This document shows, in pieces, positions 196-12,893 of a stretch of 64,000 nt of DNA (positions within the stretch are counted from its first letter, which is position 1; the number at the start of each line of letters is the position of its first letter). A model generated the notes under the pieces. That model did no database searches, was not told the origin of the DNA, and worked only from the letters and a program-made list of their open reading frames with translations. The stretch is from contig NZ_WRPR01000011.1 of the NCBI RefSeq assembly GCF_010367455.1, forward strand, positions 1 to 64,000. The letters are read 5' to 3'. The position numbers and the translations under genes were made by a program. The DNA comes from Candidatus Laterigemmans baculatus (GTDB lineage Bacteria > Planctomycetota > Planctomycetia > Pirellulales > Pirellulaceae).

Positions 196-1104
196 TCAGG
201 GCTTTGGGGGCTGGGCGGCTCGGCAGACGGCGACGACTGCAGGGTGTTGGATCTGTCGCTCGGTGGAAATCGCAAAGAAGCGGACTTGGACGGCGCTGGT
301 TTGTCCCAGCTGCACGACGTCGTACTGGCGGCAGATCTCTTCGGCGACGACCGCGGGTGCGGGAAAGACTCCGTCGCCCGCTTGGCCGAAGACTTTCAGC
401 AGCGCGCTATCGGCGATCTCGTGGACCACGCGGGGCAGGATCTGGTGCGTGTCGAACCACTGCTCGAGCCCTCTTCGCAGCGGGTTGTCGGTGGGCGGGA
501 GCAGCATCGGCAGCTCGCGGAGCCGGCTGACGAGTTCGGCTTCCGTGGAGGCTGTGCGTGATTCGATCACATCGGGGTGGGCAAAGAATGCCACCGCCGA
601 CTGTCCCAGCGCGTGGTTAAAAACCTTCAGCCCGCTGGCCGAGGGTGCCGGGGCATCGGAGAGGACGACGTCCAGACGGTGGGCCACCAGGTCGGCCAGC
701 AACCGATCCAGTTCGGCTTCGCGGCAGAGGATTTGCACCGGTTGATCGGTGGTCCGAGCGGACTGCAGCAAGCGGTAGATGACCAGTTTCGGCAGCGAGC
801 TCGTCGCCCCGACCTTCATCCGCAGCGCGCCGCTGGTCGCTCCGCTCCGGATGAACTCGGCCAGCTCTCGGCCGAGCGAAAAGATCTGCTCGGCGTACTC
901 GAACACCGTCTGCCCGGTGTCGGTCAGCGTCAGGCGGCGGCCGCCAGGGCGAAACAGCTTGGCCCCCAAAGATTCCTCGAGCTTGCGGATCTGGCTGCTC
1001 AAGGTCGGGCTGGTCAGGTGCAGCTGGCGGGCTGCCTCGGCGACGCTGCCGGTGCGGGCCACCATCCAGAAATAGTGCAGATGGTGGTAATTTAGCCAAT
1101 CCAT
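196..1104 (-). CDS. LysR-family transcriptional regulator, NhaR-like
   Basis: A LysR-type activator or repressor of about 302 residues, the normal family length. The N-terminal winged helix-turn-helix (residues about 4-62) begins MDWLNYHHLHYFWMVA and contains a GSVAEAARQLHLTSPTLSSQ helix pair. It resembles NhaR, whose N-terminus has the same Asn-Tyr-His-Leu-x-Tyr-Phe-Trp pattern. The rest is a two-lobed effector-binding domain. I chose the ATG at 1104 because the family consensus starts there; an upstream ATG at 1137 would add 11 unconserved residues and overlap the operator. The gene is divergent from the secretion operon starting at 1249, which it probably controls through the dyad at 1139-1157. 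The inducer is unknown; NhaR itself senses sodium, but that cannot be transferred from sequence alone. Confidence 0.9.
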   Translation of the reverse strand: MDWLNYHHLHYFWMVARTGSVAEAARQLHLTSPTLSSQIRKLEESLGAKLFRPGGRRLTLTDTGQTVFEYAEQIFSLGRELAEFIRSGATSGALRMKVGATSSLPKLVIYRLLQSARTTDQPVQILCREAELDRLLADLVAHRLDVVLSDAPAPSASGLKVFNHALGQSAVAFFAHPDVIESRTASTEAELVSRLRELPMLLPPTDNPLRRGLEQWFDTHQILPRVVHEIADSALLKVFGQAGDGVFPAPAVVAEEICRQYDVVQLGQTSAVQVRFFAISTERQIQHPAVVAVCRAAQPPKP

Positions 1105-1138
1105 CGCAGGACTCCCGTGCAGGACGCCGCCGGACAAC

Positions 1139-1248: not shown

Positions 1249-3408
1249 ATGTGGAATCCTGCAGACACGCACCGGGCTGTGGACGGCGTCGAGGAGGCGT
1301 TGGCGATCCTCGAGCGGTTTTGCGACCAGAACCGGGTGCCGCGTGATTCGGCCGAGCTGCGGCGTTGGCTGCTCGAATCGCTACGAGCGGTTCCCGGGGA
1401 AGGGGCCAACGGCTGGATGCGTCGGCTGATCAGCTGTGGCGGCAAGACCGGCCTTCGCGTGGGGCTGTTCGAAGCCCGTCCCGAGGAGGCGCTGCCGTTT
1501 GTCCGCCAGGGCTATCCTGTGGCTTTCGCGCTGCCGAGCGAGGATCCGACCGAGCCGGTCGCGTGGCAGGTTTTGACCGGCAGTCGGGGGCGGAAGGTGC
1601 GGGTTTGGAAGCCGGCCGAGGGGAATCGCGAGCGGTGGATGTCGCGGCGGCGGTTTTTGAAACGGCTGGCCTGCGAGGGGGCGAGTTCCTGTCGCTGGTT
1701 GGTCGCTCAGCCCGCCCTTGGCTGTGCGGCAGCGGCCGAGCAGGGCAAACCGCTGACGCCCCTGGCGCGGCTGGCGGCGGTGCTGCAGCCGGAGCGTCGC
1801 GACATCATCTCGATGATCATCTTTTCGGTGATGGTGGGGGTCTTCACGCTGGCCACACCGCTTGCGGTCGAGGCGTTGGTCAACACCGTCGCGTTTGGGC
1901 GGTATCTGCAGCCGATCATGGTGCTGGCGTTCCTGCTCTTCAGTTTCCTGTCGTTCGCGGCGGGGCTGCACGCGCTGTTGGCCTTGATCTCGGAGATGAT
2001 TCAGCGGCGGCTGTTTGTGCGGGTGGTCGAGGATCTTGCGCATCGTTTGCCGCGGGTCCGCCAGTCGCAGTTGGACGGTCGCTACGGGCCGGAGCTGGTC
2101 AACCGATTTTTTGACGTCGTGATGGTCCAGAAGGCGACCAGCCGGCTGTTGCTCGATGGAATTGCGTTGGTCGTCGCGACGCTGGTGGGGATGGCGGTGT
2201 TGGCCTTTTACCATCCGTTTTTGCTCGGCTTCGACGTGCTGTTGCTGGCGATGATGGCCGTCAGCGTGTTCGTGCTGGGGCGAGGAGCTGTCTCGAGCGC
2301 GACGAAAGAGTCGAAGGCCAAGTACGAGGTTGCCGGGTGGTTGGAGGAATTGGTCCGGAACCCGACCGCCTTCCGCTTGCACAGCGGCAGCCACCATGCG
2401 CTTGAGCGGTCGGACCAACTGGCGGTGGATTACCTCGACGCCCGCCAGTCGCACTTCCGGATCTTGATGCGGCAGATCCTGTTCTCGTTGGGGTTTTATG
2501 CGATCGCGGCGACCGTGCTGCTGGGTCTTGGCGGCTGGTTGGTGATTCAGGGCGAGCTGACGCTGGGGCAATTGGTCGCGGCCGAGATGATCCTGGCGGT
2601 GATCCTGGGGGCCTTTGCAAAGATTGGAAAGCAGTTGGAGAGCTTTTATGACTTGCTGGCCGCGGTCGACAAGCTGGGCCAGTTGTTTGACCTGCGTTTG
2701 GAGCCGACCGGAGGGGCTTACACGCTGATCGGCGAGGAGCCGGTTCCGCTAAGGCTCGATCGCGTGAGCGTCGCCATCGCCGGGCGGTCGATTCTCAAGG
2801 ACGTTTCCCTCGAAGTGGACAGGGGAGCGTCGTTGGCGGTAACGGGCGCGAGCGGGAGTGGCAAGTCGACGCTGCTGTCGGTTTTAACGGGCGAGCGGGG
2901 AGCCAGCTCGGGCTATCTGCAGGTGGCGGGGATCGATTTCCGCGAGATCGATCTGGACAGCTATCGCGAGCAGTTGGGAATCAGCCGCGGGAACGAAGTC
3001 TTTGCGGGAACGCTGGCGGAGAACGTCCATCTGCATCGGGCCCACATTCGCCCGCAGGACGTGAGCTACGCGCTGCGGCTGGTGGGTCTCGAAGAAGAGG
3101 TCCTCGCCTTGCCCGACGGCACCGAGACGCAGCTGACCACCGGCGGCCGACCGCTCTCGGAGACCCAAGCGGCGCGGCTCGCCCTCGCTCGGGCTATCGC
3201 AGCCCGTCCGAGAGTCTTATTAATCGACGGCACGCTCGACGGGTTACCGGCGGACACGGCTCGCACAGTTTTGGCAAACCTATTGCAGGCACCTCGTCCT
3301 TGGACGCTCCTGGTGGCCACCAGCCGCCGCGAGCTGGCGGATCTGTGCGATCGGGAGTATGCGGTCGGCCGCGGTGATGTCCACTCAGGTCTTTCTTCTT
3401 CAAAGTAG
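1249..3408 (+). CDS. Type I secretion ABC exporter with degenerate nucleotide-binding domain
   Basis: An inner-membrane ABC half-transporter of 719 residues. Residues 1-170 are an uncharacterised cytosolic region, about 180-430 hold the transmembrane helices, and 460-700 the nucleotide-binding domain. Walker A is intact (GASGSGKST, 533-541). The other motifs are not: the Q-loop reads GISRGNEVF with no Gln, the signature is LSETQ (636-640) instead of LSGGQ, Walker B is RVLLIDG (D660 kept, catalytic Glu replaced by G661), and the H-loop reads VATSRRE with no His. ATP binding is plausible but hydrolysis is doubtful. I chose ATG 1249; the reading frame extends upstream to 1117 but that part overlaps the operator. 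HlyD and TolC genes follow at once (7-nt gap, then 4-bp overlap), so the three form a tripartite exporter operon. Confidence 0.85.
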   Translation: MWNPADTHRAVDGVEEALAILERFCDQNRVPRDSAELRRWLLESLRAVPGEGANGWMRRLISCGGKTGLRVGLFEARPEEALPFVRQGYPVAFALPSEDPTEPVAWQVLTGSRGRKVRVWKPAEGNRERWMSRRRFLKRLACEGASSCRWLVAQPALGCAAAAEQGKPLTPLARLAAVLQPERRDIISMIIFSVMVGVFTLATPLAVEALVNTVAFGRYLQPIMVLAFLLFSFLSFAAGLHALLALISEMIQRRLFVRVVEDLAHRLPRVRQSQLDGRYGPELVNRFFDVVMVQKATSRLLLDGIALVVATLVGMAVLAFYHPFLLGFDVLLLAMMAVSVFVLGRGAVSSATKESKAKYEVAGWLEELVRNPTAFRLHSGSHHALERSDQLAVDYLDARQSHFRILMRQILFSLGFYAIAATVLLGLGGWLVIQGELTLGQLVAAEMILAVILGAFAKIGKQLESFYDLLAAVDKLGQLFDLRLEPTGGAYTLIGEEPVPLRLDRVSVAIAGRSILKDVSLEVDRGASLAVTGASGSGKSTLLSVLTGERGASSGYLQVAGIDFREIDLDSYREQLGISRGNEVFAGTLAENVHLHRAHIRPQDVSYALRLVGLEEEVLALPDGTETQLTTGGRPLSETQAARLALARAIAARPRVLLIDGTLDGLPADTARTVLANLLQAPRPWTLLVATSRRELADLCDREYAVGRGDVHSGLSSSK

Positions 3409-7145: not shown

Positions 7146-10100
7146 ATGTCACCGGCTCAGCGACGGAATTCTCGCCAGGTTCTCCGTGGTCTTTTGCAGT
7201 CCGAATCTCCTTGGATCACTCGCCGTGCCTGCCGCTCAGCGTTCGCGCGGCAGGCTTCAGCGGCGCCGCGTTATACCACTCCGCGGTGCGAGCAGCTCGA
7301 GGCCCGAATGCTCTTGGCCGCCGCTCCTTTCGGCGATGTCGCTTACGCCAGTGCCGCATCGGCCTTTCCAGCACTTGAGCCGCAACTACCACTCGGCTCG
7401 CTGGTCTACCAAGGGGAACAGGCCGGGGCGATCGAGCTGGACGGGGAGCGAGACACTTTCACGCTGGACGTCGATCCCGGTCAGTCGTTGACGGTGGTCC
7501 TCGCCGCGGACGACACGCTGCGGGCTTCGGTGGAAATTCGCCGCTCACCGGACGCGGACGCGGTCCACGCGGAAGCCGACAGTGCCGGCGAGGCGGTGGT
7601 CCTTCAGTCGATTCCGACCCGCGGCCGGCTGATCGGCAATGGCCCGCCGGCGGCGACGTATGAGATCGTGGTTTCCAGCCTCGACGGCAGCACCGGCGGT
7701 TACACGCTGCAAACGATCCTGAATGCGGCAGCGGAGTTGGAAGAGCAGACCGGAGCGACCAACGACGATCCCGCGACGGCTCAGGATCTCGCTGCCGCCT
7801 TCCAGCCGCTCGCCCAAGGGATCGACGACGACAGTGATGGCGATGGCCGCGCCGACCGGGCGGCGGTCATCGGCCGCCTCGGCAGTGACGGCACGACGAC
7901 CGTGCCGTCGGTGTTTGCGGAGGTGGACGGAGACAGTGCTACCGACATCCCTTTCAACGTCAGCCGCTTCTATAACAAGACGAGCATGCGGTTTCAGCAA
8001 ATCTACTCGGCGAGTGAATTTACCGAGGGAGGGCTGATCGACGAGCTGCGATTCCGCCGCGATGCCTGGGCGGAGGCTTTTGAAGAGCGTGGAATCGATG
8101 TTCAGGTGAAGCTGAGCTACGCCGCGAGAAGCGTCGACACCCTTTCTCAGCGGTTTGCGGAAAACGTCGGAGCCGACCAGATCACCGTGTTCGACGGCCT
8201 GCTCGATTTGGAGAGCGACGGTGAAGGAATCCCAAGGCCCTTTGACATTGTCATCGATGTCGACGATGTCTTTGTCTACGATCCGAGCCGTGGCGATCTT
8301 TTGGTCGAGATGCAGATACGAAATGCGGCGACGGTCCCCCGATTCGACTATGCACGCGGGATTCAGCAATCCACGACGAATAGCGTCTACGCGTTCGACG
8401 CCGATGCGACGGACGGAGCGGCTTATCCATGGAACCTGGGAGGCCTGGTGACGCAGTTCGGTATCGCGGCGAACGAAGACTGGTACCGCTTCACTCGAGA
8501 AGCGGGCGAGTCGACGACGATCGCGCTTTCGGAACTCTCCGCGGGCCAAGCGACTCTGGAGTTGTACGCCGCCGACGGTACGCAGCTGGCGAGGGGCGTG
8601 AGCGATGCGCTGCATGCTTCGGAAGTGATTGCAGACTTTGCGGCCGAGGAGACGGCGGGCACTTACTACGTCCGCGTCAGCGGTGAGGGGAATACCCAGT
8701 ACAACTTGGTGGTCACTCGCAACGCGGCGTTGGAGAGCACAAACAACGATTCGATTGCATCGGCCCAGGAGTTGATTCCTTCAGCGTCGGCCGGTCGCCG
8801 CTGGGTGCTGGGGGGCATCGATGGCAGCTCCGATTTCTACGCCGTCACGGTGGAAGGCAATCGAATGCTGACCCTGGAGACCGACACTCCGGGTAGCGGC
8901 TCGGGAGATTTTGTCAACGATCTCGATCCGATGCTTCGTTTGTATGACAGCGAAGGCCAACTGGTCGCCGTGGATGACGATGGTTCGCCGGTGGGGCAAA
9001 ACGCGAAGCTCCGTTACAAAGTGCCCAAGGGTGCCGGTGGGGTCTACTACGTCGAGGTGCTGTCGTCCGAGGCGGCGAGCCCGACCACCGGCGAATACAT
9101 TCTCAGCGTCCAGCACGCCGACGCGGTCCCTGGGCCTTTCGAAGCCACGATCGTCGCGCCGCCGGAGGCGTACCGCACCCGCACTGCTCCTACGCACGCG
9201 ACGGTGGATTTTAATGATGCCGTGTGGCTACCGAGTGTCGATGCGTCGGATCTAAGCGTATCGGGCGTGACGGCGACCGACGTGATCGTGGTCGATGGGA
9301 ATACGCTGACATTTGAGCTTCCGAGCTATGCGTTTCCGTGGGACTTGGCTCAGGGCGGGAACGGCAACTACTACATGCTCACCGATCGCACGACGTCGTG
9401 GGCGGAAGCGGCACAGTGGGCTGAGGCTCTCGGCGGCCAACTGGTTAGCATCGACTCCGATCGGGAGCGGCAGTTCCTTGAGCACCACTTCCTCAGCGGA
9501 GACCATCGGGATGATTCTTACTGGCTCCACGGCGGAAGCGTGTTCAGCAGTTTGAGCGAAAGCCAACCGGCAAGGCAGGGCATCGTCGAGTTGACTGAAT
9601 TGCCTCCGGGGATCTGGTCGCTGAACGACGGTGTTCACACGCTCGCGATCGCCGACGGGGCAGTCAGCGACGTGCAGTCGACGCCCGTGAGCGGAGGGAG
9701 CTCGACGGTTCTCGTCGATTTAACGGCGCCGCGTGTTGTGGGGGTTTCGCCGCAGTCAGGTGCCGTGGCCGCGTCGGGAGATTTTGAAGTCACGATCACC
9801 TTCAGCGAGCCGATCGATGCCGCCGCGCTGGACCCTTCGGGGCTGACCCTCGCGGGGCACTTCCGCGAAGGGCACTTCACCCACGATTCACTGCAGTGGA
9901 ACGCCGAGGGTACGGCTCTCACGCTGAGCTACAGCTCGCTGCCCGACGATCGCTACGCGTTGACCATTCCGAGCGGAGTGGATGGAATCCAAGATCTGCT
10001 GGGGTGGCAACTCGACGGCGAAGGCCAAGCGGTGCCTTCGGGCGATGGTTTTGAGGGTGGCAGTTTCCGTTACATCTTCGCGGTCGATCCGAGCAGTGCG

Positions 10101-12893
10101 GCGAGCTTCTCCGCTCCGCTGTATCCAGTGGCGCCGGCCGGAAGTCTGATCCACGACTCGCAGTTCACGACTTCGCCGGGCGGCCCCGCGACGGCCGGTG
10201 CCGACGGGACGATCGCGCACGGCGACGACCAAGACGACTTCACGATCCATCTCGATCCGCACCAAACGCTCACGGTGGTGGTCGAGACTGAGGACGCGTT
10301 GCAGCCCACGATCGAGATCCTCGATCCTTCCGGGACGGTCGTGGGCAGCGGCGAGGCGGTGGGCGTGCGGGAAGCGGCCGTCGCTCTGGCTCCGGCGACC
10401 GCAGGCGGCATCTATACGATCCGGGTCGGCGGTGTCGCCGGCTCGATGGGACTCTATAGCGTGCGAGCGGTGCTCAATGCGGACATCGAGCGGGAATTCT
10501 ATGGTGGTGAGAACGACAGCATTGCGACCGCGCACAACCTGGAGTCCTCGTTCACGTCGCTGCTCAAGGGAGCCGAGCGGGGGGCGATCCTCGGCCGCGC
10601 CGACGGCATTGGGACGGGGCTCGGTCCCGACGGCTTCGGTTATATGGCGACGTCCGTTCCTTTCTCGTTCGAAGACATCAGCACGACCGGGACGCTGATA
10701 GAAGAATTCTACTTAGCCTATCCCGCGCGGACGTCGACCTTTGACGGCTATGCACCACTGAGCGATGCGGACCTGGGTGACTTCGAATTTGAGTTTTACG
10801 GCGCGACCTACCGTGACCTGTTTGTAAGCATCGACGGATTCCTGACATTCCGTTGGGGAGTGGTCGCGCCCGACAATTCGGACCTGCGATACTCACCCTC
10901 TCCACCCATCATTGCCGCGCTGTGGGACGACTACCAATTGTTCGGCGGCAGTGGAAAGGTTTATTGGCAGGTCAGCGGCGAAGGAGATGCTCAAGAACTG
11001 ACAATCCAGTGGAGCAATCTCCGCCTCGACCCATCATGGAATCATCATCCGCAGACATTCCAGGTCGTACTTCGCGAAGCGGACAACTCGATCCAAGTCA
11101 ACTATCTCAACCTTGCCACCGGCTACGATGCGACCGCCGAGGGAGCAACCGCGACTGTGGGAATCAAAGATTCGTGGTCGCAGCCGGCTCTCAACTCTCG
11201 AAGACTCACCGCTTCCTACAACGACGCTTCGAATCGTCACGTGGGGACCGGACAGAGCCTGCGGTTCCATCTCCCCGACCCCACCGCCGACTACTATGCG
11301 GTGGAGTTGGAAGCGGGAGAAAAATTGACCGTTGCCACGACTGCCCTCGATGCGGGAGTCGTCGACGTCGAACTGGTTGATGGTTCGTCCAGCATTTTGG
11401 CAAGCGGCCACAATGTTTCGGTCGGCGAAGATGTAATTGCAAACTTCGAATTGCCCAGCAGTGGGACGTATTATGTTCGCGTCCGCGGAGATTTGGATGT
11501 CGATTACAGTCTGGTTCTAACTCGCAATGCCGTCTTCGACACCGAGGGCAATAGCACGCCGCGGATCGCTCAGGATCTGGCAGGCCTCAAAGTGGCTCTG
11601 GGGCACGTGGGCGGCCCCGCTGCGACGCCGGGGAACGTCCGCGTCGCGGTGCATGCCAACGATTGGGATTGGACGTCGCGACAAGGCGCCCTACGAGTGG
11701 CCACGCAGTTGAACGACAGCTCGGTCTATGACTTTACTGCCACGGTGGTCGCAAACGACTCGATGGACACGGTGGAGGAGTTAGAAAATTACGACGTGGT
11801 GATCATCGGCAGCTGGTTTTATCGCGAATTTCCGATGGACGTGGCTAAAGCGCTGCGGAGTTGGGTCGAGTCGGGTTCGGGCGGCTTGGTGGCCATCGGC
11901 AACGCGAACCGGCAACTCACCCAGTTCACCACGGATCAACGCGTGCGAGCGATGATGGATCCGATCATCCCGCTCGACCTGGGGTACAACAACGTGCCCT
12001 ATGCCTACGCCCCGCTGACGGTAGTCGATTCGCTGCATCCGGTGACCCACGGGATCACGGAAGTCACGGGCATCTACCAGGGTGAATCGAGCTTCAACGA
12101 GGCCGATGCGGATGCCCAGGTGCTGGGAATTGAGGGCTCTTGGGCCAAGCGGCCGGGGATTACCGTCAGCGAAGCGAGCGGTGGGCGGACCGTGCACTTG
12201 ATGCCCCAGTACGGCTGGCCCGACTACACCGATCTGCGCGTCCCCGGCAGTTCCGCCGACCGATTGCTGGAGCAGGCCGTGGCGTGGGCGACGCCGCCGG
12301 GCTTGGACGAAGCGGACGTTTACGCGTTCAACGCCGAGGCGGGAGCGACGCTGGATCTGTTCACCACCACGCCGGGCGACGGTTCGGGCGCGTTCGCCAA
12401 CACGCTCGACCCTCGCCTGACGCTGTACGATGCCGCTGGCAACGTGGTCGCGACGGGGATCCCGATGGCCGATGGTCGCAACGAGCAGATCGTCTACACC
12501 GTGCCCGCGGGTGCGGGCGGTCGTTACCGGATCGCCGTGGCGGCGGAGAATGGGACAGCGGGCCAGTACGTGCTGGATCCAGTCCAGGTCGCGCCCCCCG
12601 AATCCCTGACCGCCACAAGCGAAGCGACGCCCGAGATCGTGTCTTCGACGGCGCCGCAGCCGGACGCCGCAGCGGGTGACTCGGGGGACGAGATTGGAGG
12701 ATCCGCGGCCCCCGGGGAGGCGACTCTGAGCGGTTTGTCTTGGGAAGAGTCGCCGCAGGACGATTACGAATCGCTCGCCGTAGCCCAACTCGAAGCCGAA
12801 GAGCAAGCGGCCGAAGAGGGCCCGGCCGAAGAGCCGCCGGTCGACCAGCTGTTCGCCGACACCGCCTCGCTCGAGGAAGTCTTACAGAGCTGA
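7146..12893 (+). CDS. Giant exported multidomain surface protein (LEPR-XLL type signal)
   Basis: A 1915-residue exported protein. Residues 48-60 (CEQLEARMLLAAA) match the planctomycete LEPR-XLL N-terminal signal, preceded by a basic leader. Domains I can see, in order: pre-peptidase C-terminal (PPC)-like beta domain (about 85-190); a beta domain with DGDSATDIPFNVSRFYN (about 258-410); PPC-like domains (about 435-530 and 560-665); a bacterial Ig-like segment interrupted by a C-type-lectin-like unit (about 738-805, NYYMLTDRTTSWAEAAQWAE); another Ig-like domain (about 855-960); a PPC-like domain (about 1010-1110); a nidogen/NIDO-like domain (about 1210-1335); a PPC-like domain (about 1375-1460); a ThuA/amidotransferase-like Rossmann domain (about 1497-1715); and a last PPC-like domain before an acidic Glu/Ala tail. 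Its position behind the exporter operon suggests it is the cargo. Function is probably adhesion or cell-surface structure; no catalytic site is certain. Confidence 0.85.
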   Translation: MSPAQRRNSRQVLRGLLQSESPWITRRACRSAFARQASAAPRYTTPRCEQLEARMLLAAAPFGDVAYASAASAFPALEPQLPLGSLVYQGEQAGAIELDGERDTFTLDVDPGQSLTVVLAADDTLRASVEIRRSPDADAVHAEADSAGEAVVLQSIPTRGRLIGNGPPAATYEIVVSSLDGSTGGYTLQTILNAAAELEEQTGATNDDPATAQDLAAAFQPLAQGIDDDSDGDGRADRAAVIGRLGSDGTTTVPSVFAEVDGDSATDIPFNVSRFYNKTSMRFQQIYSASEFTEGGLIDELRFRRDAWAEAFEERGIDVQVKLSYAARSVDTLSQRFAENVGADQITVFDGLLDLESDGEGIPRPFDIVIDVDDVFVYDPSRGDLLVEMQIRNAATVPRFDYARGIQQSTTNSVYAFDADATDGAAYPWNLGGLVTQFGIAANEDWYRFTREAGESTTIALSELSAGQATLELYAADGTQLARGVSDALHASEVIADFAAEETAGTYYVRVSGEGNTQYNLVVTRNAALESTNNDSIASAQELIPSASAGRRWVLGGIDGSSDFYAVTVEGNRMLTLETDTPGSGSGDFVNDLDPMLRLYDSEGQLVAVDDDGSPVGQNAKLRYKVPKGAGGVYYVEVLSSEAASPTTGEYILSVQHADAVPGPFEATIVAPPEAYRTRTAPTHATVDFNDAVWLPSVDASDLSVSGVTATDVIVVDGNTLTFELPSYAFPWDLAQGGNGNYYMLTDRTTSWAEAAQWAEALGGQLVSIDSDRERQFLEHHFLSGDHRDDSYWLHGGSVFSSLSESQPARQGIVELTELPPGIWSLNDGVHTLAIADGAVSDVQSTPVSGGSSTVLVDLTAPRVVGVSPQSGAVAASGDFEVTITFSEPIDAAALDPSGLTLAGHFREGHFTHDSLQWNAEGTALTLSYSSLPDDRYALTIPSGVDGIQDLLGWQLDGEGQAVPSGDGFEGGSFRYIFAVDPSSAASFSAPLYPVAPAGSLIHDSQFTTSPGGPATAGADGTIAHGDDQDDFTIHLDPHQTLTVVVETEDALQPTIEILDPSGTVVGSGEAVGVREAAVALAPATAGGIYTIRVGGVAGSMGLYSVRAVLNADIEREFYGGENDSIATAHNLESSFTSLLKGAERGAILGRADGIGTGLGPDGFGYMATSVPFSFEDISTTGTLIEEFYLAYPARTSTFDGYAPLSDADLGDFEFEFYGATYRDLFVSIDGFLTFRWGVVAPDNSDLRYSPSPPIIAALWDDYQLFGGSGKVYWQVSGEGDAQELTIQWSNLRLDPSWNHHPQTFQVVLREADNSIQVNYLNLATGYDATAEGATATVGIKDSWSQPALNSRRLTASYNDASNRHVGTGQSLRFHLPDPTADYYAVELEAGEKLTVATTALDAGVVDVELVDGSSSILASGHNVSVGEDVIANFELPSSGTYYVRVRGDLDVDYSLVLTRNAVFDTEGNSTPRIAQDLAGLKVALGHVGGPAATPGNVRVAVHANDWDWTSRQGALRVATQLNDSSVYDFTATVVANDSMDTVEELENYDVVIIGSWFYREFPMDVAKALRSWVESGSGGLVAIGNANRQLTQFTTDQRVRAMMDPIIPLDLGYNNVPYAYAPLTVVDSLHPVTHGITEVTGIYQGESSFNEADADAQVLGIEGSWAKRPGITVSEASGGRTVHLMPQYGWPDYTDLRVPGSSADRLLEQAVAWATPPGLDEADVYAFNAEAGATLDLFTTTPGDGSGAFANTLDPRLTLYDAAGNVVATGIPMADGRNEQIVYTVPAGAGGRYRIAVAAENGTAGQYVLDPVQVAPPESLTATSEATPEIVSSTAPQPDAAAGDSGDEIGGSAAPGEATLSGLSWEESPQDDYESLAVAQLEAEEQAAEEGPAEEPPVDQLFADTASLEEVLQS

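Follow-up and report, generated by a model that had tools for sequence, protein, structure and literature searches.

ABC exporters are defined by ATP-driven transport. Among described systems, the protein studied here, which we call pABC, most resembles the HlyB-type systems (HlyB/HlyD/TolC, LssB) and the peptidase-containing ABC transporters such as PCAT1. With the HlyB type it shares the set of ABC subunit, HlyD adaptor and outer-membrane factor (OMF), a C39-like N-terminal domain and the architecture of a half-transporter in which a transmembrane domain (TMD) precedes a nucleotide-binding domain (NBD), but it scores far under the curated cut-offs of the HlyB and LssB types and is missing the catalytic Glu, the switch His, the Q-loop Gln and a signature Gly. 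PCAT1 is its top Foldseek match and is matched by a full-length profile alignment that includes most of the N-domain, yet the NBD of pABC is degenerate and its N-domain, as far as a weak alignment allows, has no conserved Cys, His or Asp, so that it does not qualify as a C39 peptidase.

Like TAP, TM287/288 and ABCC7, pABC has lost the catalytic Glu, a loss that frequently extends to the H-loop His (PMC7756269). Those transporters are heterodimers or full transporters with one of two sites degenerate, whereas pABC is the only ABC subunit of its operon and is itself degenerate, so both sites would be degenerate in a pABC homodimer. In the described degenerate cases one intact site remains (PMC7756269). 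The available part of that review covers heterodimers and full transporters, describes the two sites of a homodimer as identical, and makes no mention of a homodimer in which both are degenerate. Export without an ordinary ABC motor has been proposed for SecA_DEAD/M50/HlyD modules of Planctomycetes and other groups, which include HlyD and, in part, OEP components; unlike the pABC loci, these are without an ABC transporter homologue, as their authors state in the portion of the paper available (PMC4452313). Our literature searches, with subscription papers and preprints mostly or wholly outside their reach, found no publication on the pABC family.

The window, by which we mean the whole 64,000-nucleotide stretch of Candidatus Laterigemmans baculatus that was analysed, encodes pABC as the first gene of a pABC-HlyD-OMF operon on one strand (Table 1). 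The ABC protein, HlyD adaptor and TolC-type OMF of a type I secretion system are thus present together here, as they are in the relatives. Where the sequence extends far enough, a HlyD relative lies directly 3' of pABC in 164 of 165 homologous loci, and an OMF lies downstream in 138 of 154; this count excludes 26 loci in which less than 1.6 kb of sequence follows, and the two genome collections used share organisms, so that neither these loci nor the 232 family members counted below are independent. The original prediction, which had placed the gene in an operon with HlyD and TolC homologues, was right on this point.

Table 1. Position in the window of pABC, its domains and motifs, and the adjoining genes.
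Feature	Coordinates	Strand	Basis
pABC, degenerate HlyB/PCAT-like ABC half-exporter, 719 aa	1249..3408	+	translation, Pfam, NCBIfam, profile match, model, fold matches
N-terminal C39-like domain, aa 1-164; missing in some relatives	1249..1740	+	family profile vs PCAT1
TMD, aa 165-481; best conserved part of the family	1741..2691	+	PF00664, alignment, model
E446, acidic residue within the TM6 hydrophobic stretch	2584..2586	+	Glu in 219/232 members
NBD, aa 500-703	2746..3357	+	Pfam, model
Walker A GASGSGKST, intact, from aa 533	2845..2871	+	sequence
Q-loop position GISRGNEVF from aa 577, R580 in place of Gln	2977..3003	+	sequence
Signature LSETQ from aa 636	3154..3168	+	sequence
Walker B LLIDG from aa 657; D660 kept, catalytic Glu replaced by G661	3217..3231	+	sequence
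Switch VATSRRE from aa 689; His replaced by S692	3313..3333	+	sequence
HlyD-family periplasmic adaptor, 488 aa	3415..4881	+	6 bases 3' of pABC; Pfam, NCBIfam
OMF (OEP/TolC family), 573 aa	4878..6599	+	4-base overlap with HlyD; Pfam
Divergent LysR-type regulator	196..1137	-	Pfam; relatives near the operon in a minority of loci

Of 192 neighbourhoods, 44 contain a LysR cluster, and the LysR-type gene of the window is a candidate regulator only. Downstream, positions 7146-12893 (+) encode a 1915-aa protein that contains PPC and Big_5 domains and, at its N-terminus, a LEARMLLAA motif similar to the planctomycete extracellular signal; no relative of this protein was found near 31 fetched pABC neighbourhoods. 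The motif raised the idea that proteins bearing the planctomycete signal PF07595 are the cargo, which we rejected because PF07595 does not co-occur with pABC. Matches to it are frequent in genomes without detected pABC (22 in G004, 16 in G006, 18 in G009 and 25 in G041), are also frequent in some pABC genomes (24 in G013, 21 in G028), and number zero in the pABC genomes G017, G019, G027, G029, G045 and G048.

In pABC, Pfam places ABC_membrane (PF00664) at residues 187-455 and ABC_tran (PF00005) at residues 516-660, both above the gathering cut-offs; among 47 members scanned (E<=0.1), PF00005 was found in 47 and PF00664 in 45. An exporter TMD fused to an ABC NBD, as seen in Pfam, the structural model and fold matches, identifies the protein as a type IV ABC exporter. 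The best NCBIfam profile is LssB (TIGR03375), and the curated cut-offs of the LssB, HlyB and PrtD subfamilies are all missed (173.1 of 693.1, 155.1 of 725.55 and 152.5 of 510.15 bits, respectively). The original prediction had described four of five catalytic motifs as lost. The intact Walker A and the absence of the Q-loop Gln, catalytic Glu and switch His are borne out by the sequence, but loss of the signature is partial, since Leu, Ser and Gln are present and only the glycine position, residue 639, is Thr. The A-loop position is without an aromatic residue (I510, in a stretch where the alignment is uncertain), and the D-loop Asp, D664, is present. Judged by these residues, pABC does not appear to be a competent ABC ATPase: only the Walker A Lys, the Walker B Asp and the signature Ser are present among those scored.

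An AlphaFold2 model of pABC built with 78 relatives (pLDDT 87.9, pTM 0.89) has PCAT1 and the HlyB/HlyD complex as its top Foldseek matches over ~710-720 columns, with moderate TM-scores (0.5-0.6; about 0.53 for PCAT1) and a large rmsd over the whole chain. VIA-align gave Z values of ~28-30 to many type IV exporters for residues 168-719. The family profile aligns over positions 35-707 to 41-703 of PCAT1, and it is because of this coverage that we call the N-domain C39-like. The domain is probably not a peptidase, since no Cys, His or Asp column is conserved in more than 70% of 128 members, in what is a poor alignment with 20% mean identity; HlyB is a known case of a C39-like domain that is not catalytic (PMC8277102). 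Many relatives among L148-L184, mainly from genomes of family f8, are only ~550-600 aa long and are without this domain.

Clear homologues of pABC occur in 29 of 60 related genomes, the window genome counted (E<=1e-50), and matches were found in 122 of 296 genomes of the order (E<=1e-60) and 34 of 294 genomes of the phylum (E<=1e-45). A pattern scan of named genomes returned at least 591 stretches, 576 of which encode some relative (tblastn E<=1e-3). The best 80 of these 576 were kept, and they include Lacipirellula, Adhaeretor, Aeoliella, Botrimarina, Paludisphaera, Polyangium and Archangium, with family loci also from Myxococcota and Acidobacteriota. Contigs titled Candidatus Kuenenia carry the family as well (L219, L236, L256), although these bins may be mislabelled. 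The same motif losses recur in tables of 160 distinct proteins (some incomplete) and in the best 80 named loci. Cultured species with degenerate sites include Adhaeretor mobilis HG15A2 (L258) and Lacipirellula limnantheis I41 (L227). Leaving out aligned proteins with an incomplete TMD or NBD, and L030, which is an ordinary ABC protein, gave 232 complete members, and a filter at 80% TMD identity gave 128 non-redundant ones.

Catalytic residues are rare throughout this set. The catalytic Glu is present in 22 of the 232 members and the switch His in 16, with both in 8 and neither in 202, so that the alignment of homologues suggested by the original prediction finds the losses common to most of them. 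The Q-loop Gln occurs in 6 of 232 and the signature Ser in 158. Walker A Lys, signature Ser and Gly, Walker B Asp, Glu and His are combined in only six of 232 proteins, none of which has the Q-loop Gln. For control we used a different ABC exporter, taken from ordinary homology matches in 20 genomes of the order (13 of which, the window genome included, carry pABC). Pattern searches found its Walker A, LSGGQ and Walker B Glu in 20 of 20, and typical Q-loop and switch patterns in 19 of 20 (L283 matched at an odd place). A sequencing error or a single mutation is rejected as the cause, since the losses are common to the family while the control exporter stays intact. We regard the anatomy of pABC and the family-wide loss of catalytic residues as highly probable. 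The family is real, widespread, conserved and mainly planctomycete, and its members are probably pseudo-ATPase exporter subunits, in keeping with the term that the original prediction had used for pABC alone.

Conservation within the protein is distributed in an unusual way. Mean pairwise identity among the 128 non-redundant members is 53.9% in the TMD and 38.0% in the NBD, and in 13 genomes carrying both proteins the corresponding values are 55.3% and 38.0% for pABC and 61.1% and 69.5% for the control; the TMD of pABC is better conserved than its NBD, the inverse of a normal exporter. Of 20 invariant columns in a 47-member alignment, 17 fall in the TMD and its cytoplasmic extensions and three in the NBD. 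The residues that do persist in the NBD across the family are G555, N592, A647-R648, P654, D660 and D664, because of which the fold, and perhaps the dimer face, seem to have been kept while the chemistry was lost.

A faster NBD might also mean relaxed selection, with the whole system on its way out and the NBD the first part to decay. Median dN/dS (Nei-Gojobori, own script) is indeed higher for the NBD, at 0.157, than for the TMD, at 0.094, in the 46 of 72 close pairs with dS <2 (26 were dropped, and one organism pair seems to be listed twice, as L077/L078 and L209/L212, with equal values). One very degenerate locus also fits such decay: L145 (G152), the sole locus of 165 without a downstream HlyD match, has Asp at the Walker A Lys and Trp at the catalytic Glu, and is possibly a real pseudogene stage. 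Against this, dN/dS of the NBD stays under 1 in all listed pairs for which it is finite (highest 0.64), the degenerate state is common to many genera, and only one listed family match, in G421, has an internal stop. The NBD is under purifying selection, and relaxed selection is a very improbable explanation. The earlier statement that the gene is unlikely to be decaying is upheld by its open frame, the conserved operon and the median dN/dS of 0.16 in the NBD.

To place the losses, we used a TMD-only tree of 128 rows, made by a quick method and unrooted, in which 29 of 125 inner branches have SH-aLRT >=95. The fewest changes on this tree are 8 for the catalytic Glu, 4 for the His and 13 for the Walker A Lys; loss and gain are not separable in these counts because the tree is unrooted. 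One clade of six members (6 of 128, SH-aLRT 91; L235 from Paludisphaera soli JC670, L240, L260, L264, L012, L238) is near-intact, having Glu, His and Lys together with an LSLGQ or ISQGQ signature. Its members come from Isosphaerales and Gemmatales, from unplaced planctomycetes and, in one case (G021), from the same family as the window genome; elsewhere on the tree Glu alone is scattered. Homologues with intact motifs, which the original prediction had named as a possible sign of error in this sequence, therefore exist (6 of 232), but they form a single, less degenerate branch and do not point to a sequencing error here. Going by its residues, this clade indicates that the export system also exists with a near-canonical NBD, and we infer that a near-canonical ancestor probably lost the catalytic set, in part repeatedly. 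The near-intact clade is also without the Q-loop Gln at residue 580, where it has Lys or Arg. Because the Gln is absent even from a clade that keeps Glu and His, it may have been lost earlier than catalysis and independently of it.

Nucleotide binding may have had a different fate from hydrolysis. The persistence of the Walker A Lys in 186 of 232 members, of the Walker B Asp in 217 of 232 and of the D-loop Asp in 124 of 128 suggests that it still matters in most members. The same residues, present in the window protein too, would fit an exporter that is ATP-gated, not ATP-driven: a homodimer would bind ATP at Walker A and closure of the NBDs would open the path, with slow or no hydrolysis, either as one stroke or as a channel-like gate. 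Channel-like ATP gating is the mode of CFTR. We consider this reading possible but less probable than not, as the Walker A Lys is lost in 46 of 232 members, with at least 13 changes on the tree, while the operon persists, and as the signature Gly is found at 639 in only 37 of 232 and an A-loop aromatic in only 65 of 232 (the alignment is uncertain at the A-loop). The P-loop is no longer recognisable in some relatives, for example L177-L184. With at least 13 changes of the Lys on the best tree, even ATP binding would seem dispensable in some lineages. The idea that pABC binds ATP may thus hold for the window protein, but hardly for all relatives.

Hydrolysis itself might instead continue in an unorthodox, slow form, with another residue replacing the catalytic base. 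Walker A and the Walker B Asp are still there, slow hydrolysis may occur with Gly at 661, and exporters with one degenerate site still transport, according to the portion of that study available (PMC7544095). No single substitute residue appears in the catalytic column, however, which among the 128 members is mostly Gly (80), followed by Glu, Ser, Arg, Asp, Ala, Thr and His, and the switch His, Q-loop Gln and signature Gly are also gone in most members. We think an active ATPase of this kind quite improbable, and productive hydrolysis is likely to be absent from the pABC family.

Described degenerate sites otherwise occur in heterodimers and full transporters (PMC7756269, as far as available), and pABC could by analogy supply the degenerate half, and an intact ABC exporter encoded elsewhere the other, in a heterodimer or a mixed oligomer. 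The window genome has three ABC_membrane proteins (E<=0.001), pABC and two others, and both of the others have intact motifs. The search for an intact half-transporter in the genome, which the original prediction had called for, gave these two exporters, but both types are also common in genomes without the pABC system. Matches to one, the C100 type, were found in 58 of 60 genomes whether pABC is present or not. Matches to the other, the C11 type, were found in 41 of 60, but 7 of 29 pABC genomes have none (E<=1e-90), and in three more the matches are weaker and probably to paralogues (E about 1e-91 to 1e-93). Across 30 pABC genomes, a PF00664 search found one to six ABC_membrane exporters per genome; it missed pABC itself in G113, G117 and G168 (3 of 30), so that a divergent partner could escape it too. 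Among the five single-contig pABC genomes, G042 and G116 have pABC and just one other exporter, G059 and G136 have three in all and G112 has four.

Nor does a second ABC gene recur beside the operon. Around 174 loci read by script (18 more remained unread) we found 16 other ABC-like ORFs, of which none is adjacent to pABC and HlyD and four are of exporter size, at L032, L150, L174 and L206. Two pABC copies each occur in G049, G050, G221 and G271, where the paralogues could pair; G085 and G211 also have two matches each, as pieces at contig ends. A dedicated intact partner was not found in this non-exhaustive survey of 174 neighbourhoods, the window genome and 30 pABC genomes, and its existence appears unlikely from the gene content, although a distant or MsbA-like one is conceivable. 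The suggestion of a partner ABC subunit encoded elsewhere is not supported, none adjoining the operon and none being specific to pABC, and we consider a heteromeric transporter improbable.

The reading we favour, and hold to be reasonably probable as a whole, is that of a hydrolysis-free, conserved, homodimeric pseudo-ATPase exporter that is energised otherwise. pABC would supply the inner-membrane component of a tripartite exporter encoded by three genes, the others being HlyD and the OMF, and it belongs to a HlyB/PCAT-like half-exporter family that appears to have given up canonical ATP hydrolysis. It would work as a homodimer whose NBDs are kept as a scaffold for dimerisation and coupling; where Walker A survives, as in the window, the NBD could perhaps bind ATP and, as a clamp, gate the channel without hydrolysis. 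Transport would be driven by another source, most plausibly an ion-motive force that acts on the charge-rich and highly conserved TMD, with E446 in TM6 as one possible site.

Charged positions whose class is conserved in more than 85% of the 128 members include E249, R254, R258, E282, R286, K295, E354, K358, R399, E446, K458, E464, D468 and K475. The position of E446 is occupied by other residues in aligned HlyB, PrtD and YheI. Ion-coupled transport has been reported for LmrA, whose proton-coupled transport requires a TM6 glutamate (PMC6155054), and, in combination with ATP, for MsbA (PMC4979069), both as given in the available parts of these papers. Of 128 members, 9 have a residue other than Glu at 446, and 6 of these 9 retain the catalytic Glu and/or His (Fisher p 0.0004). 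On the tree, this trade-off comes down to four or five independent pairs, for which a sign test shows nothing. As E446 is also present in five of the six members of the near-intact clade and the trade-off fails on the tree, no result specifically favours ion coupling and E446 is a lead only. We accordingly put forward ion-motive force as a possible but doubtful energy source. Equally speculative is the furthest form of the favoured reading, in which hydrolysis has been wholly abandoned in an ion-gradient-driven or passively gated tripartite exporter whose NBDs are only structural pseudo-enzymes, and in which living species still show the stages, from near-intact (Isosphaerales, Gemmatales and allies) to the absence of a recognisable P-loop.

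To run without ATP hydrolysis would be unusual for ABC pumps. A family with a lone degenerate subunit, a fast NBD and a conserved TMD makes it testable whether ATP hydrolysis is dispensable in tripartite export, and also whether ion gradients can serve as the main driver, LmrA and MsbA being reported cases in which they act as a co-driver. The species of the pABC family, whose operons are of one kind but whose sites are near-intact, partly lost or fully lost, form a natural mutant series.
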